21,273 bases of DNA from a virus: IMG/VR virus record IMGVR_UViG_3300043427_000834, positions 1-21,273 of that record; one strand, 5' to 3'. The notes below the pieces were generated by a model. The model was not told the DNA's origin, ran no database searches, and saw only the letters and a program-made list of their open reading frames with translations. Positions 8,333-21,273 of this stretch are shown here, one piece after another; positions within the stretch are counted from its first letter, which is position 1; each line of letters begins with the position of its first letter. The position numbers and the translations under genes were made by a program.

Positions 8333-8783
8333 TCGATGTCACTGGCAGCGCCCCCACCAGCGCTTGCGTCAAGCGCCGCAGCGGCACATCGGATCCCACC
8401 GCATCGAGCACGGTGTTGAGGGACAGGCTCAGGCTTGTCTCGTCCCAGTCGCCGCCGGCAACCTGGCCAACGTACTGGTGCATCTTCTCGCCGGCGTCCG
8501 GGTTGTCAGGATTGAGCGCCATCACAAACACCGTGCCAATCCACCGGTCTCTGACCGCCTCCAGCGCCCAATTGCGGCTCAGCTCATTGTTGGGCAGAAG
8601 CACCGTTGCCTCGGTGTTGTCGCCGGTGCGGTTGATAGTGATCCCCGAAAACCCAAATGGCAGGAATGTGTACGTGCTGCTTTCAAACGTTGCCGACTGG
8701 CCAATGTGAAAGTTTTGGAACCGATAGACGGTGCTGCCTGATGGCGTACTGAACGTCAGGTAATTGCCGACTGCAAGTTCCAT
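8316..8783 (-). CDS. Tail-tip minor protein, lambda gpL-like position (155 aa)
   Basis: The protein has YRFQNFHIGQSATFESSTYT, then FLPFGFSGITINRTGDNTEA and LLPNNELSRNWALEAVRDRW. The arrangement (a measured substance/voltage-type F-x-x-F strand, then G-x-x-x-N-R-T-G-D-N-x-E-A-T, then P-N-N-E) is what I associate with DUF1833/gpL-type proteins at the distal tail. In lambda, gpL caps the tube and carries cysteines for an iron-sulfur cluster. No cysteine is present here and the protein is shorter than gpL, so it would represent only the N-terminal domain. Its ATG overlaps the tape-measure stop by one base (TGATG). Its position between tape measure and K-like gene supports the role more strongly than the sequence does. 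Confidence 0.68.
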   Translation of the reverse strand: MELAVGNYLTFSTPSGSTVYRFQNFHIGQSATFESSTYTFLPFGFSGITINRTGDNTEATVLLPNNELSRNWALEAVRDRWIGTVFVMALNPDNPDAGEKMHQYVGQVAGGDWDETSLSLSLNTVLDAVGSDVPLRRLTQALVGALPVTSNVRLR

Positions 8784-11212
8784 CAGACCCCCACCCTCCG
8801 CCGCGTTGCTGGCGACTGTTGCAACCTGCGCAGCGTCAGCTGTTGGCCGCGTTGTGCGCCTTCAGCGGCAGCTTGCTGCATTCCTTGGCGGAACTGATCA
8901 GCGGTGACGTACTCGACATCGTTAATTCGCTCGACCGTGTAGCGCACGTCAATTGATGTAGTGCCAACGGCCATCGCTCCAGTCGCGCCGCCCTCGCCAT
9001 CGGCCGCCATAGTGCCTGTGGCACCCATCGGCCTGTAGCGGTTGAGAGCCTCAGTGCGCTGCTTCATCTTCACCGGTATGCTCCGGCCATCTGGCAGGGG
9101 CACATAAGCTTCAGGGCCGCGCTCCCCGTAGATCGCCATCTCAGGCGAGCGGGCAATGCCGCCCTGCGCGTAACGCCGCATCGGCACCACGTTGCTGGGC
9201 ATCACGCCGCCGGTGGCAAACTTCAGCGGCGCTGCGCTAGTGGAACCAGTGGCGCCACCTGTGGCAGCGAACCCAAGGTTGAGACCAGGAAAGATTCCAC
9301 CGATTGCCTTGAAGATCGCAAACTTGATCAGCATCGCGCTGAGATCCTTGAGCACCGATGCAGCAAACTCCTTAAAAGCCGCCTTGCCCGTTGAGGCAAA
9401 ATCAACAATTGCGTTGGTCAGGCCGTCGATGCCGTTTGTGGCGATGCTGGCCAGGTTAGCGCCAAGGTTCAGGGCTGAGTCTGATGCCTGCTTAAAGCCT
9501 TCCTTGAACTGCGTGCCAAAGCTCTTGTTGCTCTCCTCTTGCTTCTTGACCGCTGCATCCAGCGCGCCAGCGCGCTCGCGTAGGAGCCGAATTTGCTCAG
9601 CCAGCGCCGGGTTGGTTTGCGCCAAGATGTCCAGCTGCAAGAGGTTGACCTCCGCGTTCAACTTCTCCAGCTCGGTCAGCTCGGTCTTGCCGCGTGTGAC
9701 CTCGGCAATTTTGGCGTCGTACTCCTCCAGCTTGGGAAGCAGGTCGATCAAGCCTTGGGTGTATTGCTTGTCAATCAGTCCCTCGGCAGCTGCAAATCCT
9801 TGATCAATCAAATCCGCAAACGGCTTGATGTCGAGCGTGCCGCCGGCCGCTGCAACTTCGCGGTTTAGTTCCACCACGGTCTTGGTCAGATCTTTGACCC
9901 GCCGCTCGTTTTCAGTGAGGGCGTCACTGCGCTCGATGAACAGTTGCTCAGTTGGGCTGGCGCCAACGCCAACTGTTGCCACCCTTGCATCCTCAACACT
10001 TCTGCGCAGTTGCTCCTGCAGCTCGATCGCTTTCTGCGTCAGATCATTGCGACGCTCGGCAAGGCGCTGCTGCTCATCTGCTGCACGCTTTGCATCCGAT
10101 GCTGCTTTGCGTGCAGCAGCAGCGGCACGATCATCGGCGGCAGATGTGTCCAGCTCCATGCCGCGGCCACCCATGCGGCGCCCGGTGCCGGGAGATGCGG
10201 AATCGGTCCAGAGTTTGCCAATCTGCTCAAAGTCGCGCTTTGCCTGCTCTAGGCCAGCGCCAACCCCTTGGCTGATCGCTCTACCTGCGCCTGCAAAATC
10301 ACCTTTCAACGCTTTGCCGACAGCATCAACGCTGTAGACAACAGCCTTAATCAGCTGATCCACCAACTTGATAGTGGCGTAGATCACGGTGGCGATGCTG
10401 CGGATGCCAAACTTGATCACCTCAAACAGCGCCGTCCAATCCTGCTTGGTGTCGAACAGATCCGAAAACACCTCAAGGATCGACTGCAGTGCCGGCAACA
10501 GCGCATCGGTCAGCTCCAACCCGAAGCCCTGCGTCTTGATGTCCAGCTCGGTAATTGTGTCGTTGAACTTGTCAGACCTAGCAGCAAAGTCCTCGCCCAC
10601 TTTGTAGGTGAACTTTTCCATCGCCGCCGCGCCTTCGTTCAGCAGCGGGATCAGATCTGCGCCGGATTTGCCAAACAACGCAACCGCCGCGGCCGCCTTC
10701 TGCGCACCGTCCGGCATGTCAGCAAAGCGATCAGCGATCTGCTTCAGCGCTTTGTCGGCTGGCACCACCTGGCCGTTGGCGTCTTTGACATCCACACCGA
10801 GACGCTTGAAATTGCTGGCCAGCGCTGCATTGCCCTCGGCCGCCTTGACTAGGTTCACGTTGAGCTTGTTCAGCCCCTTGCCCAGCGTGGCCATGTCCAC
10901 GTCGGCCAGCTTGGCTGCGTTGCCGATGCCGATCAGCGCTTTGGCTGCAATGCCGGTTTTTGCCTGCAGGTTGAACAGCTCATCACCGGCGTCGATCGAC
11001 TTCTTCACGACAGCCGTCAGCCCGGCCACGATGGCGCTGCCGGCGATCGCTGCACCGAAGCCAGCCACCGCGCCCTTCAGGCTGTTGAAGCCCATCGCGG
11101 CATTCTTGGCCTGGCCCTGCAGGCCCCGCATGGAGTTGCCCAGCCGGCGAATTGCCTCCTCACCGGAAACTGCCGCCTTGATCTTGAGCAGCGCGTCCAT
11201 GTTCATCGCCAT
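8783..11212 (-). CDS. Tail length tape measure protein, lambda gpH-type (809 aa)
   Basis: This long, alpha-helical protein sets tail length and is ejected with the DNA. FGFGAAIAGS-type hydrophobic segments near residues 46-68 (GAVAGFGAAIAGSAIVAGLT) and VALFGKSGADLIPLLNEG are standard for siphophage tape measures. Residues about 356-407 form a charged, alanine-rich coiled coil (DDRAAAAARKAASDAKRAAD, then QRLAERRNDLTQKAIELQEQ). The C-terminal domain of the lambda family (PF09718-like) is recognisable at TGKAAFKEFAASVLKDLSAM (about 607), followed by the signature MAIYGERGPEAYVPLPDGRS (about 691). The start has GAGG eight bases upstream and follows the chaperone stop by one base. It is the longest gene after J, as usual, and lies directly after the G/T chaperones. 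Confidence 0.95.
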   Translation of the reverse strand: MAMNMDALLKIKAAVSGEEAIRRLGNSMRGLQGQAKNAAMGFNSLKGAVAGFGAAIAGSAIVAGLTAVVKKSIDAGDELFNLQAKTGIAAKALIGIGNAAKLADVDMATLGKGLNKLNVNLVKAAEGNAALASNFKRLGVDVKDANGQVVPADKALKQIADRFADMPDGAQKAAAAVALFGKSGADLIPLLNEGAAAMEKFTYKVGEDFAARSDKFNDTITELDIKTQGFGLELTDALLPALQSILEVFSDLFDTKQDWTALFEVIKFGIRSIATVIYATIKLVDQLIKAVVYSVDAVGKALKGDFAGAGRAISQGVGAGLEQAKRDFEQIGKLWTDSASPGTGRRMGGRGMELDTSAADDRAAAAARKAASDAKRAADEQQRLAERRNDLTQKAIELQEQLRRSVEDARVATVGVGASPTEQLFIERSDALTENERRVKDLTKTVVELNREVAAAGGTLDIKPFADLIDQGFAAAEGLIDKQYTQGLIDLLPKLEEYDAKIAEVTRGKTELTELEKLNAEVNLLQLDILAQTNPALAEQIRLLRERAGALDAAVKKQEESNKSFGTQFKEGFKQASDSALNLGANLASIATNGIDGLTNAIVDFASTGKAAFKEFAASVLKDLSAMLIKFAIFKAIGGIFPGLNLGFAATGGATGSTSAAPLKFATGGVMPSNVVPMRRYAQGGIARSPEMAIYGERGPEAYVPLPDGRSIPVKMKQRTEALNRYRPMGATGTMAADGEGGATGAMAVGTTSIDVRYTVERINDVEYVTADQFRQGMQQAAAEGAQRGQQLTLRRLQQSPATRRRVGV
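11043..11050. other. HIP1 octamer GCGATCGC
   Basis: The palindrome GCGATCGC lies in the tape-measure gene. HIP1 is enriched in many cyanobacterial genomes. One copy alone means little; see the two copies in the portal gene. Confidence 0.45.
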
Positions 11213-11213
11213 G

Positions 11214-11540
11214 TCAGTCGCCTCGGCTGTTAATGACCATCAACGCTGCTGCCTCCATGGTCTGCAGATCCTCCAGCAGCGCGCGCGGGTCTTCCACTGC
11301 GTACATCTTAAAGAGCCAAGCCACTGCGCCATAGTCCAAGCCCAGCACGCCGTTCATCGTGGTGCGCCATTGCGTCTGGCAGCGCAGGAACATCTCGACC
11401 GCCGGCCAGTTCTCCTCCCACACCTCAAAGTGTTGCACCGCAAGTTCAGGCTCCGGCATCTGCACACCGAAAGCCTTGAGCGCTTCTGCCGTGTCGTCTT
11501 TGACATCGCCGCCGGCCCAATGCTCGGCGGCCTCTGTCAG
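11214..11540 (-). CDS. Tail assembly chaperone gpT part, made by -1 frameshift from gpG (DUF1799-like)
   Basis: This frame is open from just past the gpG stop. Read from the frameshift it begins LTEAAEHWAGGDVKDDTAEA, then continues ALKAFGVQMPEPELAVQHFE, VWEENWPAVEMFLRCQTQWR and GVLGLDYGAVAWLF. The W-x-E-N-W-x-A-V-x-x-F ... T-Q-W-R ... G-L-D-Y pattern is that of the DUF1799 family (the T part of G/T chaperones). Slipping at 11546-11540 fuses this 108-residue part to gpG, giving about 227 residues. T binds the tube protein while the G part coats the tape measure. No good independent start was found: a GTG at 11465 and an ATG at 11459 exist, and AAGG lies eight bases before the GTG, so independent starts cannot be excluded. 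The frameshift model is preferred because the region between gpG and this start is open and conserved in lambda-type tails. Confidence 0.85.
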   Translation of the reverse strand: MTEAAEHWAGGDVKDDTAEALKAFGVQMPEPELAVQHFEVWEENWPAVEMFLRCQTQWRTTMNGVLGLDYGAVAWLFKMYAVEDPRALLEDLQTMEAAALMVINSRGD

Positions 11541-11546
11541 TTTTTT
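11508..11546 (-). promoter_or_regulatory. Programmed -1 ribosomal frameshift site (slippery heptamer plus stem-loop)
   Basis: The coding strand reads A AAA AAC (11546-11540) in the correct zero-frame phase of gpG, ending one base before its TGA. Slipping back one base continues without a stop into the T frame. After an 8-nt spacer (11539-11532) follow complementary arms GCCGCC (11531-11526) and GGCGGC (11513-11508) with a 12-nt loop. Heptamer, spacer and stem match the established elements of -1 frameshifting. Phages of the lambda tail type use this to make G and G-T in a set ratio. Efficiency is unknown. Confidence 0.92.
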
Positions 11547-11896
11547 CTCTTGGCTCCCTTGATGCTGTCCATATAGGCCTTCAGCACCGCTACCGCGAGG
11601 AATGGCACCTCCAACAGCTGCTCCAGCGCCTTTTGGCTAAACGGGATCTCCTTGCCGTTGTCATCGCTGACACCGGACCATCCGACCAGTACATCGGCCG
11701 CAATCTCGGTGATGCGATCCAGCTCGCCTAGATCTTCCAGCCGGCCCAGCTCGGCCACCATCGGGCCGATCTTGCTTTGTGGCAGTCGCTTAAACTCGCC
11801 ATCAAACGTCTGGCGCTCATGCCGACCACCATCGACGGGAACGTCGAAGGTGACCGGCCAGCTGTAGGTGTCGGACTGCTTGAGAACAAACGACAT
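11537..11896 (-). CDS. Tail assembly chaperone gpG-like (119 aa)
   Basis: The protein reads SFVLKQSDTYSWPVTFDVPV, then FKRLPQSKIGPMVAELGRLE, TEIAADVLVGWSGVSDDNGK and QLLEVPFLAVAVLKAYMDSI. An N-terminal strand pair is followed by a helical half with the W-x-G-V-x-D signature of phage tail assembly chaperones (GTA TAC / lambda gpG-like). It coats the tape measure protein during tail assembly and is not in the virion. The last codons are the frameshift site, so a fraction of ribosomes adds the T part. AAGGA lies about eight bases before the ATG. It follows the tube gene after 17 bases and precedes the tape measure, the standard order. Family assignment rests on pattern, position and the shift site together. 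Confidence 0.9.
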   Translation of the reverse strand: MSFVLKQSDTYSWPVTFDVPVDGGRHERQTFDGEFKRLPQSKIGPMVAELGRLEDLGELDRITEIAADVLVGWSGVSDDNGKEIPFSQKALEQLLEVPFLAVAVLKAYMDSIKGAKRKN

Positions 11897-11913: not shown

Positions 11914-13077
11914 TCAGGTGAAGGTTAGGACGACTTCATCGTTTCCGGCAGAAGTCGGGATGGCGACGTAGGGAAGGGTCAGCATCTGGATCCCGTCCTG
12001 ATCGCTATAGGACGGGTTGCTGATGTCCGCTTTCGGAGCGGTCAGCGTCACCCGGTTGCCAGCAGTAGTGCCATGCAAGAAGCTGACCTTGCCGTTGGTG
12101 TCGCTGTTAGCGGCGGTGAAATAGTCCTTTTGCGCAATGGTCGGTGCCTCAATGACGCACTCACCAGCTGGTGCTCGGTTGGTGATGATGATGCTCTTGG
12201 TGCAGCCGACCAGCTCGCGGTAGACGGTCTCGTTGGCAATGTTGAAGGACAGGGACTGGAGGCAGCCGCTGTAGTCGAGGAAGCTGAACGCCGAAGCGTT
12301 GCCGGCCTTGAAGATCTGCGGCGTGGCTTGGGCGGTGTAGGTGACCGCCGGAGCAGCGGTGTCGGTCGGGGCGTTGTAGATGCCGACCATCTCAAAGGTG
12401 ATCGTCGGGATTTCGCCCACAGTGGCGTTGAGGCTCCAGGTGCCACGGCAGCCGGTCATCTTGTGCAGCACATCGCCGCCGACGTAAACGTAGATGGTGG
12501 CGCTGTCAAAGGCGCTGCTGACGGGCTTATAGCCGACGTTGGCGGCGATGCTGTAGCCGCTTGATGCACCAGGCACGAACGTGGTGGTGCTGGCCTGCAC
12601 GGTCGCCACCTTGGTGGTGCCGTCGTAGTCGGTGATCACGCCGACGTGACCGTTGCCGGTGCCAGAGGTGATGCTGACGATCATCCCGTTGTAGATGTCG
12701 TCGGTGGCGCTGGCGCCTGCTGCAAGAGTGATCGAGTTGGCAGCTCCAGCTTGCGCGCTGCCGGTGATCGCCGCGGCGGTAGTGGTCTCAGCCATGCCGC
12801 AAGCCTTCAGCAGGCTGCCGAAGCGGGGAGCAGTGGCGCCTGTGCCGGAGCCGGCCATTTCCACTTCAAAGCTCAGGCTGACCCGCGCCTGCGCCAGCAG
12901 CTGGTCGCTGTTGCCAAGGTACGGCCGGATCAGGTCGCGGCTCACTACATCAGCCTCGATCGGCGTGACGGTGAGGTTGCGAATCAGGATGGCGTCAGTG
13001 CCGTCAGGCAGTGCGTCGGTTGCGTACTGAGCCTCGGTTTTTGCGAGGATCGCGGTTCTGCGGGTTAGGAGCGGCAT
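11914..13077 (-). CDS. Major tail tube protein, with an inserted domain (387 aa)
   Basis: The order terminator, tube, chaperones, tape measure is fixed in lambda-type tails and this gene fills the tube slot. Residues about 30-75 (AILIRNLTVTPIEADVVSRD, then RVSLSFEVEMAGSGTG) and the second half (about 185-300, with TWSLNATVGEIPTITFEMVG) carry the strand-rich tail-tube pattern. Between them, at about 102-179, is a self-contained module ending YNGMIVSITSGTGNGHVGVI, TDYDGTTKVATV and SSGYSIA. I recognise this as a domain that decorates phage structural proteins. The tube would then bear a surface domain on each subunit. GAGG lies about nine bases before the ATG, which overlaps the upstream small gene by 74 bases. 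The protein is longer than a plain tube protein (often 150-250 aa), consistent with the insert. Confidence 0.85.
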   Translation of the reverse strand: MPLLTRRTAILAKTEAQYATDALPDGTDAILIRNLTVTPIEADVVSRDLIRPYLGNSDQLLAQARVSLSFEVEMAGSGTGATAPRFGSLLKACGMAETTTAAAITGSAQAGAANSITLAAGASATDDIYNGMIVSITSGTGNGHVGVITDYDGTTKVATVQASTTTFVPGASSGYSIAANVGYKPVSSAFDSATIYVYVGGDVLHKMTGCRGTWSLNATVGEIPTITFEMVGIYNAPTDTAAPAVTYTAQATPQIFKAGNASAFSFLDYSGCLQSLSFNIANETVYRELVGCTKSIIITNRAPAGECVIEAPTIAQKDYFTAANSDTNGKVSFLHGTTAGNRVTLTAPKADISNPSYSDQDGIQMLTLPYVAIPTSAGNDEVVLTFT

Positions 13078-13695: not shown

Positions 13696-15387
13696 CTAGA
13701 AGATGAAGACCACACGCCGCCGGCCGCCGCCGCCGGCCTTGGCCAAGCTCACAGCGTTGCCGGTCAGGGTGAAGATGCCGGTCGTTGCTTCTAGCGCATC
13801 AGTGCCCGCCAGTCCTGCCAGGTTGCCCGTCAGCGTGAACTCGCCACGCGCACCGAGCAGGCTTCGCGCGGCCGTCAGTGCTGCCGGGTTACCCGTCAGC
13901 AGGAACTCCCCGCGCGCGCCCAGCACGGCCTTGCTGGCCGCCAGCGTGGCCGCCTGGCCGGTCAGCGTGAACAGGCCCCGATCGACGCTAAACAGCCTGC
14001 TGCGGCTCAGCGTTGCGCCGTTGCTGGCCAGCGTGAACGTGCCTACCAGCGGCGTCAGCTCATCGGCTGCGGCCTTGGTCAGCGTGGCCGCGTTGCCGGT
14101 GAAGGTGAACGCGCCGGTGCCGCCAGCCAAGGCGTAGCCACGCTCCAGCTCGACCGTGTTGCCGACCAGCGTGAACGCGCCCGTGCCGCCGTCGAGCTTG
14201 ACGTTGTGGGCCAAGCTGGCCTGCTGGCCGGTCAGCGTGAACTGGCCTGTCTCGCCAGCTAATGCACTGCCACGCTTCAGTGTGGCCGCATTACCCGTGA
14301 AGCTGAAACTGCCGGCTGTCGCATCAAGCTGATCGGTGTCAGCCAGGGTTACCGCGTTACCCGTCAGCGTGAACTGCCCCCGGTCGGCAGTGATCGCATA
14401 GCCCTGCGTCAGGCTTGCTTGATTTCCCGTCAGGCTGAAAACACCGACAACAGGCAGCAGCTCCTTTGCTGCGGCTTTGGTGAAGGTGGCATCGTTGCCC
14501 GTCAAGCTGAAGCTGCCAGTGGCGCCCTCGATGCGGACGTTGTGGCGCGCATCGGCGTCATTGCCGGTGAGCGTGAACGCGCCCGTGCCGCCGTCAATTA
14601 CTGCGTTGCGGCGCAAATCTGCAGCGTTGCCGGCAAGGTTGAACGCGCCAACCGCCGGTTCAAGAATCTTTGGACTGACGATCGTCAGGTCCGCTGGATT
14701 ACCCGTCAGCGTGAAGGTGCCGACGATCGGCGTCTCGGTGCGCGGCACCAGCTCGCGGATGGCGAGATAGACCGCTGCAACGTCATCCGAAGAGGCGTTA
14801 AAGCCAACTAAGCGGGCACCTTGGCCCGCCGTGTTCTCCCGGACCATCGAGCAAGCAAAGTTGCCGAGGTCAATGTTGGTTAGCTGCGTGCTGCCGGTGT
14901 CTGCGCCAGCTGGCGCAGCACCGCCGTAGTAAGTCGCGGCGTAGCGCAAGCTGTTAACGCCAACACTGCCGTCGTCAATCGAACGACGGCTAAGGACTTG
15001 GTTTTCTTGGTCAACTCGGATGCCGGCCCAGGTCGTGTCTGTTGCGGCGGTAACTGTCGCCGCCGACGCATACATCACCGTGGCGTTATTGGTCCGGTTG
15101 ACCGCAATTGTTTGGTTTCCGGTCGCAAGACCAGAGCCCAGAAAAAACATGTCTGTTCTTCCCGGCTCTGTTGTTGCGTCAATAGCGACAGCGCCCGCAA
15201 CGCGGGTCAGGCCTGTGCCGCCATAGGTGACGCTGGTGACGGTATTTGTTGCGCTGATCGTGTGAACAAAGACCACCACGCCTTGCGGCGTGCCAGTCTG
15301 CGTGTGCGTCCAACTGAACGCTGCCTGGTTGGTTGAACCTGTTGTCCCGGTATGAGACTCCGAGGCAGCACTATGGGCGACAGCCAC
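13696..15387 (-). CDS. Appendage protein with 15 GxFxLTGN repeats (563 aa)
   Basis: The N-terminal domain (about 1-216: SVTYGGTGLTRVAGAVAIDA, then AATVTAATDTTWAGI) has a beta-rich pattern with V-x-x-V-x-Y-G-G-x-x-L-T-x-V that is common in surface and phage structural proteins. Residues 217-550 are 15 tandem repeats of 22-24 residues with the core G-x-F-x-L-T-G-N-x-A-x-L, e.g. GAFTLTGNDADAR and GQFTLTGNAVTLA. The C-terminus is GGGGRRRVVFIF. The repeats likely form a long, thin beta-rich shaft or solenoid on the virion; no catalytic residues are visible. The start is GTG with GGAGG seven bases upstream. It lies between the connector and the terminator, in an appendage block. I cannot name a family. 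Repeat number may vary between relatives. Confidence 0.82.
   Translation of the reverse strand: MAVAHSAASESHTGTTGSTNQAAFSWTHTQTGTPQGVVVFVHTISATNTVTSVTYGGTGLTRVAGAVAIDATTEPGRTDMFFLGSGLATGNQTIAVNRTNNATVMYASAATVTAATDTTWAGIRVDQENQVLSRRSIDDGSVGVNSLRYAATYYGGAAPAGADTGSTQLTNIDLGNFACSMVRENTAGQGARLVGFNASSDDVAAVYLAIRELVPRTETPIVGTFTLTGNPADLTIVSPKILEPAVGAFNLAGNAADLRRNAVIDGGTGAFTLTGNDADARHNVRIEGATGSFSLTGNDATFTKAAAKELLPVVGVFSLTGNQASLTQGYAITADRGQFTLTGNAVTLADTDQLDATAGSFSFTGNAATLKRGSALAGETGQFTLTGQQASLAHNVKLDGGTGAFTLVGNTVELERGYALAGGTGAFTFTGNAATLTKAAADELTPLVGTFTLASNGATLSRSRLFSVDRGLFTLTGQAATLAASKAVLGARGEFLLTGNPAALTAARSLLGARGEFTLTGNLAGLAGTDALEATTGIFTLTGNAVSLAKAGGGGRRRVVFIF
13738..14739 (-). repeat. Fifteen tandem coding repeats (about 66-72 bp each)
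   Basis: Within the repeat protein, units of 22-24 codons follow each other from residue 217 to 550. The best kept part encodes F-T-L-T-G-N, usually TTC-ACG-CTG-ACC-GGC-AAC with changes at third positions. Units differ at many bases, so this is an old or selected array, not a recent expansion. Units 13 and 14 share LGARGEF and are the most alike. This is a protein repeat and does not form a CRISPR array. Confidence 0.9.
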
Positions 15388-15867: not shown

Positions 15868-16986
15868 TCAGAACGCAACGGACAAGTTGAACTCGTCCAC
15901 CGTGCCGCTGACTGCTGTGATCTTCACCCACACCCAGCGGTCAGCGGGAATGGGCTGGTTCTGCACCGTGGCGGTGTCGCCAATGGTGGTGTTGGTCACG
16001 GTGTCGTTGACGGTGGCCAACGTGCCAGCTGTGGTGCGGTCGCTGGCATAGCGCAGCTCGTAGGTTACCGAGCCGCCGGAGACCAGCGCCACCACGCTGG
16101 TGATCGTGGTCTCGCGGCTGGTGCGGAACAGAGTGAAGCTGTCGTTTGCCACCGGTCCCGCGATCGTGATGCTGCGCGGCGCTGAGCCGTTTACGGGTGG
16201 CAGATGCTGCCAGCGGTTGGCTGCATCCACCCAGGTCAATACGTCGCCATCGCCAGCGTCGGATGTTTCAACGTCGTGGCAGTCCTTCAGGAACTGGCCG
16301 GTCGCCGCCCGCACGAAGATGATGCCGTTGTTGGCCGATGTGATCACCGCCGCCACCGGCAGTTTCAGGTTCGGCCCATCCGGCTCGGTCGTGACAAAGC
16401 CGCCAGGGTTGGCCGGGTCGCAGTAAAGGATTGAGTCCACCGGGAAGGCGGTGGTGTCGATGCCGCGCACCTTGCCAAACGCGGTCACGAAACCGCTGCT
16501 GCCTGATGCCACCGTCTCGGTCATCACGCCGAGAAACACATGCCCAGGCAGCGTGCCGTTGGCGATCATCGGCGCCACCTTCAGGTGGCCGCTTGCGCCA
16601 TTGGTGCCGACGTACATCACGCCGGTGCCTTCGGTAATCGTGCCGGCCGTGTCGTTGTAGACCAAGAACGCGGTTTCCTGCCCTACCTGCAGCACTGTCC
16701 CGCCGCCCTTGGCAACGTCCAGCGTCTGCTCATCCTCGTTCCAGGCCAGTTCGCCAGCCGTGTCCGCATTGCCGCCGGTGGTCAGCAGTTGGATCGACTG
16801 CAGGATCGGGTTGCGGTTGAGCGGCGCATACTCCAGCGCGCTCCATGCGCTGCTGCCATTTCCAATCTTTGCCTGCTTGGTGTCGCTCTCGTAGCCGACT
16901 TCACCGGCCGCCAGCACCGGGTTGGCGGCCGTCCAGTTGGCGGCCGTGTCACGCCTGAGCTTGATCCGCTGCCGCGTCGTGGCCAT
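15868..16986 (-). CDS. Appendage protein with Mtd_N-type N-terminus (372 aa)
   Basis: IKLRRDTAANWTAANPVLAA, followed by GEVGYESDTKQAKIGNGSSA (residues about 8-47), is the short N-terminal module of Mtd-type and many other tail-fibre proteins (Mtd_N, PF18454-like), which links the protein to the virion. The middle (about 90-235) contains VYNDTAGTITEGTGVMYVGT and GHVFLGVMTETVASGSSGFV, a beta-rich domain met in phage structural proteins. GDVLTWVDAANRWQHLPPVN (about 248-267) is an appendage motif. The C-terminal domain (about 272-372) is strand-rich. Despite the name, no C-type lectin variable domain is visible. GGAGG lies six bases before the ATG, inside the end of the connector gene, and stop and start overlap by one base (TAATG). 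The expected role is a head-tail junction fibre or decoration. Confidence 0.85.
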   Translation of the reverse strand: MATTRQRIKLRRDTAANWTAANPVLAAGEVGYESDTKQAKIGNGSSAWSALEYAPLNRNPILQSIQLLTTGGNADTAGELAWNEDEQTLDVAKGGGTVLQVGQETAFLVYNDTAGTITEGTGVMYVGTNGASGHLKVAPMIANGTLPGHVFLGVMTETVASGSSGFVTAFGKVRGIDTTAFPVDSILYCDPANPGGFVTTEPDGPNLKLPVAAVITSANNGIIFVRAATGQFLKDCHDVETSDAGDGDVLTWVDAANRWQHLPPVNGSAPRSITIAGPVANDSFTLFRTSRETTITSVVALVSGGSVTYELRYASDRTTAGTLATVNDTVTNTTIGDTATVQNQPIPADRWVWVKITAVSGTVDEFNLSVAF

Positions 16987-18038: not shown

Positions 18039-19832
18039 TCAGAGAGTGTTGTTGCCGCGGCAGAAGCTCTCGGGATGACGGACTGCGAAGTCCACATCCT
18101 GCAGAGCCACCACCCGCACGGTGCCGCTGGTGCTGTGGGTGTAAGGATCCACGGTCAGATCCAGACCAGACCACATGCCCATGATCAGCTGGCTCCACAC
18201 GGCGAAGAAGATGTCGCCGCTGAGCACTTGGTTGCTCACCGTGGCGCCGTAACCGTTGACGGTGCCGCCAGGCTCAAACAGGTAGGCGCCGGTATCGGTG
18301 CCCTTGTCCTTGGTCTTCAGAGCGCCGCGCATGGAGGCGTTCATCAGGTAAGCCATGGCGCCGATGTCGGCGTTGTCGGCAGCGATCTTGCTTTCCATGC
18401 TCACCACCTCGGCGTAGGTGGGAGTGGCAGCACCGAAGTCTTCGGTGTTGATGCCGCTGGTCAGCTTGATGCCGAGGGGCTGGTTGCTGTTGCCCAGGCC
18501 GTAGAGGCCCACGCGGTCGATCTCCAGCGCCAGCACGGTGGCGAGATCCTGGCGGATCATCTGCTCCACGTCGATGCTGGACTGCAGCATCAGGCGACGG
18601 CTGTAGTCGGTGAAAGCGCCGACCGTCTTAGGTGACATGTTCACCTGGTCAACCGTCTGGTTGCTCTCGGTCGGAGCGCCGGACTCAGCCACCCAATAGG
18701 CAGTGGCGGCGCCGGTCTGACGGGGGATTGCCACGTTGCCGGACAGGCCGGACAGCGAGGTGACGCCCAGCCCAGCAAGAGCAGAGCGGTTGCGCAGCAG
18801 CTCGATGAACGAACCGGGGCGGAAGTCAACGCCGACCAGATCACCAGCAGCGGAGGCAGTGCCCACCACCAGATCGCGGCGCAGCACCTCGTTGGGCACC
18901 ATGATGCCCTGAGCGGTCTTGCCAGCCTTGGCGGCAGCAGCTTCAGAGCACTCGCGCTCAAAGGAAGCGGCTTCCCACAGCTTGCGATCTTGGGGGTTGG
19001 CCAGTGCGTTGATAGCGCGCTGGAAGGAAAACTCGCGGGTCTCCTTGGCGGTCAGGCCGATGTCGGCAGCCTTCTCGGAGACGGGCTCAACCTTGGCGCC
19101 CAGCTTGTCGAGGACAGCAGCGCGGGCCTCGTCGAGGCTGCGGCCACCTTCGATCAGCTGGCGGCCGAGATCAGCCATGCCGTGCTTTTCAGTCAGGGCG
19201 GAAATGCCGGAGATGCGGGAGCGCTCAGCTTTGGCAGCTTCAGCAGCCGCTTCAGCCCGCACCGCCGAAAGATCAGGGGTGTTTTCCATCGGAACCTCGG
19301 GTTCTGTTTCGGGGGTTGGTGATGCGGCTGGAGCCGCAGGTTGAACGTCGAGAGCACGCCCGACGCCGACCGTTGGGTCTGCAGGTATGCTAACCACGCT
19401 CACTTCGTAGGGACTCCAGCTGGTCGCTACGAAGTCATCGCCGCGTTGCTCCATGTCGTTGATGGCATAGCCAAACGACACATTGCGCAGCACGCCATCT
19501 TTCACATCAGCCAACACCTCTTGGGCGAAGGCATTGCGAGAGAAGCGGACGTTGACATAGCCGCGCTTGCTCTTGTCATCGAGCCAGGCACGCTCCACCA
19601 CGCCGACCACCTTGTTGGGGTCGTGGTTGAACAACACCGGGGCGGAATCGTTCAGGCGGGAGAGATCAGCAGCGCCGCGTTCATGGCTGAGCACTTCGTT
19701 GCCGAAGTAGCGCGCCACCGCAAACTCGCTCGAGAAGGGAAACTCGATGCTGCGCTCGTCATCGCTGACCTGGAAATCAGCAACCTCAGAGCGCTTCAGC
19801 AGCTGGCCTTCTAGGTCACGCGATAGATCCAT
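18039..19832 (-). CDS. Prohead protease fused to major capsid protein, HK97 type (597 aa)
   Basis: The first 165 residues are an HK97-type prohead protease (U35-like): VLFNHDPNKVVGVVERAWLD with His70, VLRNVSFGYAIND with Ser119 and PYEVSVVSIPADP with Glu143 are the expected active-site segments. Residues 182-290 form a charged helical region (SAVRAEAAAEAAKAERSRIS), the place of a delta/scaffold domain. Residues about 290-597 are the capsid fold, with AKAGKTAQGIMVPNEVLRRD, ATAYWVAESGAPTESNQTVD and GLYGLGNSNQPLGIKLTSGI. The protease cuts the scaffold region, and the capsid protein builds the head. The ATG at 19832 is preferred; it overlaps the portal stop by 17 bases. ATGs at 19859 and 19910 are alternatives. 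An internal ATG at 19289 could give a protease-free capsid of 416 aa. Confidence 0.93.
   Translation of the reverse strand: MDLSRDLEGQLLKRSEVADFQVSDDERSIEFPFSSEFAVARYFGNEVLSHERGAADLSRLNDSAPVLFNHDPNKVVGVVERAWLDDKSKRGYVNVRFSRNAFAQEVLADVKDGVLRNVSFGYAINDMEQRGDDFVATSWSPYEVSVVSIPADPTVGVGRALDVQPAAPAASPTPETEPEVPMENTPDLSAVRAEAAAEAAKAERSRISGISALTEKHGMADLGRQLIEGGRSLDEARAAVLDKLGAKVEPVSEKAADIGLTAKETREFSFQRAINALANPQDRKLWEAASFERECSEAAAAKAGKTAQGIMVPNEVLRRDLVVGTASAAGDLVGVDFRPGSFIELLRNRSALAGLGVTSLSGLSGNVAIPRQTGAATAYWVAESGAPTESNQTVDQVNMSPKTVGAFTDYSRRLMLQSSIDVEQMIRQDLATVLALEIDRVGLYGLGNSNQPLGIKLTSGINTEDFGAATPTYAEVVSMESKIAADNADIGAMAYLMNASMRGALKTKDKGTDTGAYLFEPGGTVNGYGATVSNQVLSGDIFFAVWSQLIMGMWSGLDLTVDPYTHSTSGTVRVVALQDVDFAVRHPESFCRGNNTL
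19287..19298 (-). promoter_or_regulatory. Internal ribosome-binding site and ATG for a separate capsid protein
   Basis: Inside the protease-capsid frame, GAGG (19298-19295) precedes an in-frame ATG (19289) by five bases, exactly at the border of the protease and the scaffold/capsid half (sequence PMENTPDLSAV). Starting here gives a 416-residue product with scaffold and capsid and no protease. A nested start of this kind is established for lambda C/Nu3. Use in this phage is inference. Confidence 0.6.
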
Positions 19833-21273
19833 CGGGGGTATCCACGTTGTCTTCCACATTATCGGGCGTCTTAGGTGCAGCAGCAGCCGGTGGGGCTGGC
19901 GCCGGGTCACTGGCCGGGTCGGTGTCGAACTTCAACTCCAGGTCGTTGGCGGCATCCAGCTCCATCCGCCGCGCCTGCATCATCTCCTCAAGGTCGCCGC
20001 CTTGCTCGGCCACCACTTCGCCCAGCGTCTTGAAGCCGCAGCGCACCGCTTCCTTGTAGGCCTCGACTTCCTTGCCGGGGTCCACCCATGCCCAACCGCG
20101 TGGCATCCAATGAACCGCCTTGTAGCGATCGGCCTGCAGTTCGTAGCTGGCCAGCGGCAGCGCACCACTGAGTACTGCCATGTCCAGCCACACCTCAAAC
20201 ACCCGCTGGTGCAGGTTCTCGATCAGCCAGCTCTGCAACACCCGCCAATGGTCGCGGTCTTCCAGCAGCGACAGCCGGCTTGATGAATAGTTGGTCTGGC
20301 TGAAATCGCGGCTCACCGTCTCGTAGCTGCAGCCAATGCCGGCAGCCATGGCCCGCAGCATCGCCCGCACGAACGGCTCAAACTGACCATCCGGCGCGTC
20401 CAGTTGCGGAACTGTCACACTCTCGCCCGGCGCCAGGTACTTGAACACGCCCGGCTCAAAGTTGCTGACCCGTTCGCCCTCGATCACCTCGTCGCCCATC
20501 AGCTCGCCCTCAGGGCTGGTGATGAAGCCCATCAGCGCCGATGCTGCCCGCGCCCGCACGATCTCCGCCTGCTCGTAGCCCTGCAGGTGGTGCAGCCGCT
20601 GGATTGCTGAAGCAAACCACGTCACGCCCCTGGTCTGCCCTGGCCGGTCAACCCGATAAAGGTGGATCACCTCATCGGCCGGCACCCGCTTGTGGCGCTG
20701 CGTGCTGATCTGTTGGTTGCTGAACTGATAGTCGCCCGGGTGGTACGCCAGGAAGTGATAAGCCACCGGCCGGCCCCAGGTGTCCACCTCCACGCCCATC
20801 CTGATCTCGTTGCCCTGCTGGCTGCGGCCGTTCAGCCCATCGTCAAGCAGGTCGGCCTCTAGCACCTCCAGCGCCAGCGGCACCGCTGAGCCACCGAACG
20901 GCTGCTTCACCAGCCGCACGAACACCTCACCCGACTCCGCCACGCTCCTGATCGCCAGCGCCTCAATGTCATGCCATGTCAGCTTGCCCGCCGTGTGGCA
21001 GTGCTGCGCCTTGGTCCACCGCTTCCACGCCGCCTCGATCTGGTCGTTGACGGTCTTGTCCAGCCGCCCGCCGCGTTGCATCCGCACTTGCGCCTGGAAC
21101 GGGATGCCCTGGCCCACCACGTTGGCCGCGATCGCCCGCAACGTTTGCCGCGCGTAGTCGTTGTCCCGGCACAGCTGCCGTACGCGATCGCGCAACTTCT
21201 GCGCCGAGCCGTACACCTCGCTGTCGGCGCTGGTGTTGCCCGTCACCCAGTCGGCCGTCAGCCGGCTGAACTT
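19816..21273 (-). CDS. Portal protein, lambda gpB-type, N-terminus beyond the window
   Basis: The frame is open to the right edge, giving 485 visible residues starting KFSRLTADWVTGNTSADSEV; about 40-60 N-terminal residues are likely missing. A GTG at 21246 lies inside this conserved part and is not considered the start. Segments typical of lambda-type portals are LRDRVRQLCRDNDYARQTLR, AANVVGQGIPFQAQVR, SGEVFVRLVKQ, VIHLYRVDRPGQTRGVTWFA, FSQTNYSSSRLSLLEDRDHW and WMPRGWAWVDPGKEVEAYKE. Twelve copies form the vertex ring through which DNA is packaged and released. The C-terminus has a proline/alanine-rich tail (DPAPAPPAAAAPKTP). It overlaps the protease-capsid frame by 17 bases. The gene is upstream of the protease in all lambda-like maps, which agrees. 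Confidence 0.95.
   Translation of the reverse strand, partial: KFSRLTADWVTGNTSADSEVYGSAQKLRDRVRQLCRDNDYARQTLRAIAANVVGQGIPFQAQVRMQRGGRLDKTVNDQIEAAWKRWTKAQHCHTAGKLTWHDIEALAIRSVAESGEVFVRLVKQPFGGSAVPLALEVLEADLLDDGLNGRSQQGNEIRMGVEVDTWGRPVAYHFLAYHPGDYQFSNQQISTQRHKRVPADEVIHLYRVDRPGQTRGVTWFASAIQRLHHLQGYEQAEIVRARAASALMGFITSPEGELMGDEVIEGERVSNFEPGVFKYLAPGESVTVPQLDAPDGQFEPFVRAMLRAMAAGIGCSYETVSRDFSQTNYSSSRLSLLEDRDHWRVLQSWLIENLHQRVFEVWLDMAVLSGALPLASYELQADRYKAVHWMPRGWAWVDPGKEVEAYKEAVRCGFKTLGEVVAEQGGDLEEMMQARRMELDAANDLELKFDTDPASDPAPAPPAAAAPKTPDNVEDNVDTPDGSIA
21128..21135. other. HIP1 octamer GCGATCGC
   Basis: This second copy lies in the portal gene, 56 bases from the third. It is consistent with, but does not prove, a cyanobacterial host. 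Confidence 0.45.
21184..21191. other. HIP1 octamer GCGATCGC
   Basis: This is the third copy, also in the portal gene. Three copies in 21 kb exceed a rough chance expectation of under one at this base composition; the excess is modest. Confidence 0.45.

Follow-up and report, generated by a model that had tools for sequence, protein, structure and literature searches.

The window analysed here is the whole of a 21,273-base virus record, whose minus strand carries a head-to-tail gene block. Between the tail tube and tape measure genes of this block two reading frames overlap, and the question raised by the locus is whether they encode two unrelated proteins, as a simple gene call has it, or are joined during translation. 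Comparison with relatives makes it very probable that translation from a single start codon yields both tail assembly chaperones, through programmed −1 ribosomal frameshifting at A AAA AAC.

Organization of the G/T locus

The features of the locus are as follows, with the evidence for each.

11914–13077, minus strand: tail tube protein gene (Phage_tube_2), upstream neighbour of G; profile match.
11537–11896, minus strand: G, zero-frame tail assembly chaperone, 119 aa, Phage_TAC_4-like; Pfam PF08748.
11554–11560, minus strand: Shine-Dalgarno (SD)-like AAGGGAG, containing GGAG, 7 nt 5' of the heptamer; synonymous constraint in close relatives.
11540–11546, minus strand: slippery heptamer A AAA AAC, immediately before the TGA of G; phase and conservation.
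11532–11539, minus strand: spacer TGACAGAG, 8 nt, including the G stop TGA; sequence and folding.
11508–11531, minus strand: putative stem-loop stimulator of 7 bp, a bulged A, 2 bp and a 5-nt loop; folding, covariation and structure peak.
11463–11465, minus strand: GTG used by a simple gene call as the T start; not kept as a start in relatives.
11214–11540, minus strand: T, −1-frame extension, DUF1799, 108 aa counted from heptamer to stop; PF08809.
8783–11212, minus strand: tape measure protein gene, downstream neighbour of T; family matches.

G starts at ATG 11896 and ends at TGA 11539–11537. The −1 frame is free of stops from 11636 to the TGA at 11216–11214, and a slip at the heptamer gives a 227-residue G-T product; the preliminary description had claimed such an open frame and fusion, and both were confirmed by translation of the reading frames. 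Between the heptamer and GTG 11465 the T frame has no ATG, GTG or TTG, and for this reason a simple gene call splits G from T and leaves 11466–11536 empty, as had also been claimed. The phage lambda G/GT pair comprises two overlapping frames between the tail tube and tape measure genes, an XXXYYYZ heptamer near the end of the first frame and a −1 extension (PMC5009743). The same overlapping-frame layout, heptamer placement and −1 extension are found here, with G and T lying between the tail tube gene (13077–11914) and the tape measure gene (11212–8783), and an in-phase XXXYYYZ near the G end with T in the −1 frame.

Three other products of the minus strand were noted. A 563-aa protein with many ~22-aa repeats, GxFTLTGNxAxL (66-nt direct repeats), is encoded at 13696–15387 between the tail terminator and fibre genes, and it had no family match above cut-off. 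The protein encoded at 15868–16986 contains an Mtd_N (major tropism determinant N-terminal) domain, and an mtd gene is annotated in the corresponding block of phage S-CBS1. A prohead protease (Peptidase_S78) and the major capsid protein occupy a single 623-aa reading frame at 18039–19910.

Protein families and structure models

G matches Phage_TAC_4 (PF08748) at 21.5 bits (cut-off 21.1), and 34 of the 45 aligned G relatives match this family at E ≤ 0.01, the best at 8.4e-44. T matches DUF1799 (PF08809) at 67.6 bits (cut-off 26). The PHROG 17368 profile of 213 positions matches T at its positions 120–210, which fits a fused G-T form. An NCBIfam search gave no match for G or T, and a PDB sequence search with the two proteins gave nothing significant. 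AlphaFold (AF2) models were obtained with pLDDT of 89 for G and 87 for T, and the T model has a high-confidence helix at residues 2–10, directly at the junction. Foldseek searches of the PDB with either model identified nothing significant. A second look at the Foldseek candidates for G placed the HK97 chaperone 2ob9 (Z score of 3.1 only, rmsd of 4.8 over 77 residues) and YqbN 3klu (Z score of 3.1 only, rmsd of 6.6 over 90 residues) among the top three. In a viral library the G model matched Gp15 of phage eiAU at 5e-5 and, lower down, proteins named tape measure chaperone.

The slippery heptamer and its conservation

The 3' end of G reads GCC AAG AGA AAA AAC TGA. The preliminary description had the heptamer correctly in phase but placed it one base before the stop, whereas it abuts TGA directly (codons AGA AAA AAC TGA), with zero bases between. 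The bare heptamer alone means nothing, because AAAAAAC occurs twice in the window against 1.4 expected. In-phase XXXYYYZ of any kind occurs 10 times at ~6000 codon positions; the expectation for in-phase A AAA AAC is 2.4e-5 per codon, and the one here falls on the final two G codons, at the point where T starts. A chance occurrence is ruled out by this phase and by conservation.

The 80 IMG/VR relatives of T, 64–79% identical to it, align from residue 1, which is the codon directly behind the heptamer. AAAAAAC is kept in 79 of these 80 close relatives, and the remaining one (L066) has AAAAAGC. The nearest cultured relatives infect Synechococcus. Two close relatives on contigs of 3.3 and 3.9 kb (L082 and L083) are binned as Burkholderiales and Rhodobacteraceae genomes, respectively; these are probably misplaced viral contigs and hence carry no evidence on the host.

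Wider searches yielded 406 loci, mostly on metagenomic contigs, that reduce to 317 distinct G/T (DUF1799) junction contexts. An automated count gave 233 A AAA AAC and 66 G GGA AAC, every one of them at a distance of 0 or 3 nt from the stop of G. There was also a single A AAA AAA, and in the remaining 17 junctions no heptamer was detected. Five of these 17 are contig-end artefacts in which the heptamer is visible on direct inspection (L074, L174, L176, L179 and L186), and their inclusion brings the standard heptamer to 304 of the 317 distinct junctions. Seven others have the tetramer A_AAG (L203, L204 and L241–L245), which is shifty in E. coli (PMC5009743). Only five junctions depart: L066 has A AAA AGC, L305 a run of eight A's, L226 and L229 runs of five, and L346 an unrelated region upstream. 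These five look damaged or different. In L226 and L229, both T1-like phage records, the five A's at about position 1001 put T in the +1 (or −2) frame relative to G, through either homopolymer sequencing errors or a different frameshift; L305 has eight A's at its slip site, also at about position 1001, where its relatives have six. The standard heptamer is also present in the Synechococcus phages S-CBS1, S-LBS1 and S-CBS3, in coliphage T1 and in Edwardsiella phage eiAU. The alignment check named in the preliminary description, with relatives that lose the heptamer while retaining both frames as its refuting outcome, thus strongly supports the frameshift.

The kind of constraint acting on the heptamer was read from 78 diverse junctions, dereplicated at 75% identity. 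The codon before A AAA AAC is AGA, GAA, CGA, GCA, GTA, ATA, ACA or CAA and that before G GGA AAC is CTG, CGG, TTG or CAG, so that Arg, Glu, Ala, Val, Ile, Thr, Gln or Leu is encoded, and the third base is always the one needed by the heptamer (A in 65, G in 13). As judged from these alignments, it is the nucleotides and not the residues that are conserved at the slip site. The heptamer is therefore conserved beyond protein constraint, as expected of a lambda-type junction, its wobble base being fixed while the residues vary. Asn119 is the sole invariant G residue among 45 diverse proteins. The stop follows the heptamer directly in 68 of the 78 junctions, and one codon intervenes in the other 10.

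Synonymous variation was compared among 47 dereplicated close relatives. The ratio of synonymous differences to expectation is 0.23 in the slip codons, 0.52 in the SD-like codons and 0.36 in the stem, against backgrounds of 0.75 in G and 0.87 in T, all constraint counts and ratios in this comparison being raw values not corrected for phylogeny. Ala4 of T is encoded by GCC in 46 of the 47, while GCC makes up 32% of Ala codons.

Putative stimulatory elements flanking the heptamer

The 8-nt spacer proposed previously was found as described (11539–11532), followed by a stem of 9 bp (7 bp, a one-base bulge and 2 bp), of which the 6 bp claimed before are the outer part. The stem and its flanks (11536–11492) fold at −21.0 kcal/mol with a z score of −3.82, and none of 200 shuffles is as low. 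The expectation that relatives keep the stem is borne out by a position-specific structure peak across the set of 78 diverse relatives. The mean folding z score is −1.78 for the first 40 nt past the heptamer, and other windows range from −0.7 to +0.3; the peak lies exactly at 0 to +40 nt past the heptamer (paired Wilcoxon p of 1.3e-9 against control windows). The hairpin sequences vary between lineages, and therefore position and pairing are kept rather than sequence. In a gapless group alignment standard pairs fill 88.9% of the cells of the 9-bp stem, and four pairs are changed on both sides, a number reached in 5 of 500 shuffles. RNAalifold preferred a shifted 5-bp register on the same alignment. 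The covariation support from this gapless alignment by itself is modest, suggestive of the stem but not decisive. An extra outer helix, TGACA/TGTCA, appears in the long fold of the window; it was rejected, as it is missing by eye in many relatives.

The SD-like AAGGGAG upstream of the heptamer had been overlooked in the preliminary description and, on the codon usage of close relatives, is a probable upstream stimulator of slippage. Gly114 is encoded by GGA or GGG in 47 of 47 dereplicated relatives, although GGA and GGG together account for ~20% of Gly codons. By the criteria of Sharma et al. (PMC4066793), in which an SD-like motif lies 6–17 nt before the second heptamer base, the element fits the SD part of a dnaX-like triple signal (SD, heptamer and hairpin), with GGAG 8 nt before that base. 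Among the 78 diverse relatives an SD-like motif precedes the heptamer in 38%, against 8–36% at other offsets, and the element is strongly kept only in the close group of the window itself. Synonymous variation is also low just 5' of it, in G codons 106–112 (11581–11561, minus strand; ratio 0.33–0.37), with Ser as AGC in 46 of 47 and Ile as ATC in 39 of 39. The known signals do not fully account for this, which perhaps reflects a further upstream element.

Alternative explanations

T may instead be a separate gene, translationally coupled to G from GTG 11465 or ATG 11459, with the heptamer incidental. An AAGG lies 8 nt upstream of GTG 11465, and in the published annotations of S-CBS1, S-CBS3, S-LBS1 and T1 the T gene stands on its own and begins at an internal codon. 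However, ATG, GTG or TTG is found at T codon 26 in at most 28% of the dereplicated relatives and at codon 28 in 49%, and the first possible starts are scattered from T codon 6 to 51 such that no start position is kept. Protein homology and coding constraint extend back to the heptamer: over T codons 13–25 pN/pS is 0.30 in the T frame as compared with 1.08 and 2.04 in the two alternative frames, even though these codons have no conserved start codon ahead of them. A separate T also leaves the conserved heptamer and stem unexplained, and we consider it very unlikely. CTG 11540 was discarded as a T start, as the codon is CTA in L068 and L078. Even less credible is that RNA polymerase slippage on the A run joins the frames at transcription. 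Six A's stand in a row at the junction, and seven in 15 of the 78 relatives, but the run is short, since transcriptional slippage usually needs about nine A's or more. In the G GGA AAC relatives (13 of 78) the run shrinks to three A's, and neither the phase nor the place of the stop changes. An SD-like element and a stem at ribosomal spacing are not needed for slippage of the polymerase. Readthrough of the stop codon was rejected as well, the zero frame past TGA being irregular in length among relatives and often closing at once.

A different tRNA step within the same frameshift has greater merit, yet on balance is unlikely. Slippage would take place with AAC in the P site and a slow stop codon in the A site, making the stop part of the signal. 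The stop-abutting layout, immediate in 68 of 78 junctions and one codon removed in 10, leaves room for such a role, and slip-to-stop distances in annotated phages are typically far longer, with means of 26 or 36 nt (PMC10885494). Against this, stop identity 3' of the heptamer varies among TGA, TAA and TAG, a sense codon intervenes in ten relatives, and the lack of a gap could mean no more than that G has the shortest tail it can have. Moreover, both the X and Y triplets are kept, as tandem slippage needs and single-tRNA slippage does not.

Proposed frameshifting mechanism

The analysis documents the anatomy of the locus, its conservation, constraint acting on heptamer and stimulators, and a coding constraint on T that begins at the junction. 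That ribosomes slip by −1 at A AAA AAC, how often and at which tRNA step they do so, and what G and G-T contribute to tail assembly are inferred. Most ribosomes would terminate at the TGA that immediately follows the heptamer, yielding the 119-aa G. Some, a minority, would be held up by the stem-loop 8 nt downstream and, probably with help from the upstream AAGGGAG, would slip back by one base as the Lys and Asn tRNAs re-pair with AAA AAA; reading on through T, they would yield the 227-aa G-T with the junction KRKN-LTEA. The junction given previously, IKGAKRKK/LTEAAEHW, does not agree with tandem slippage, which predicts KRKN-LTEAAEHW with Asn inserted before or during the slip; a KRKK junction would require the P-site lysine tRNA to slip by itself, ahead of AAC decoding. 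The tryptic junction peptide predicted for tandem slippage is NLTEAAEHWAGGDVK. By analogy with lambda, many copies of G and few of G-T would coat the tape measure protein, and subunits of the tail tube would be brought in through the T portion, neither protein being expected in the virion.

Several observations count against a frameshift. In E. coli A AAA AAC shifts far less readily than A AAA AAG (PMC5009743), the relatives L066, L305, L226, L229 and L346 depart from the motif, the stem covariation taken alone is modest, and the constraint statistics are uncorrected for phylogeny.

Comparison with known systems

Lambda slips on G GGA AAG, whereas the window has A AAA AAC abutting the stop, a strong stem-loop and an SD-like element, and its G and T belong to Phage_TAC_4 and DUF1799, a further difference from lambda. 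The earlier assignment to the lambda G/GT type is nonetheless supported by anatomy, gene order, these two families and conservation. The closest cultured relatives, S-CBS1, S-LBS1 and S-CBS3, share the gene order and the A AAA AAC heptamer with the window and have a stem in the matching position. Their G proteins are 29–46% and their T proteins 39–47% identical to those of the window, and they are annotated as two proteins without a join. In E. coli dnaX, as here, an SD-like AGGGAG is followed by A AAA AAx and a stem-loop. The spacing is not identical: AGGGAG lies 10 nt upstream of A AAA AAG in dnaX and 7 nt upstream of A AAA AAC here, 3 nt shorter. Frameshifting in dnaX yields the shorter product and here would yield the longer one.

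Motifs identical to those of the window and its relatives, abutting the stop, have already been predicted in phages Loki and KL1. Acinetobacter phage Loki gp12/gp13 (PMC5313236), with IME_AB3, is a close known system from a siphophage of another host, predicted without a survey of relatives. In Burkholderia phage KL1 gp18/gp19, GGGAAAC stands immediately 5' of TGA with a predicted stem-loop in the next 35 bases (PMC3483164); KL1 differs from the window in its G GGA AAC as opposed to A AAA AAC, its host and an extra gene before the tape measure gene. A frameshift was reported at the G/T position of Edwardsiella phage eiAU (PMC3025963), and HK97-like chaperone junctions gave 6–7% in a reporter (PMC3711429).

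Implications for DUF1799 chaperones

Frameshifting of the lambda G/GT type is an established kind, known from lambda and many others (PMC5009743), with conserved G-T frameshifts across long-tailed dsDNA phages, and the window is a well-supported added member. No paper linking DUF1799 with frameshifting was found in the literature searched, where a family-wide DUF1799 rule seems not to be stated. We tentatively suggest, while regarding it as rather doubtful, that all DUF1799 chaperones of cyanobacterial and proteobacterial phages share a stop-abutting X XXA AAC-stop (X being A or G), in which shifting may be kept infrequent by the weak AAC together with the stop next to it, and the stop itself may take part in the slip.

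The frameshift would settle the two-gene annotation in cyanophages and T1-like phages, where databases split the pair into unrelated proteins. It provides a simple rule, X XXA AAC at 0 or 3 nt before the G stop, which is true for ~96% of the 317 distinct DUF1799 junctions. These junctions also form a natural series for asking why these phages favour AAC as the slip codon when AAG is far more slippery, and whether the neighbouring stop plays a part.
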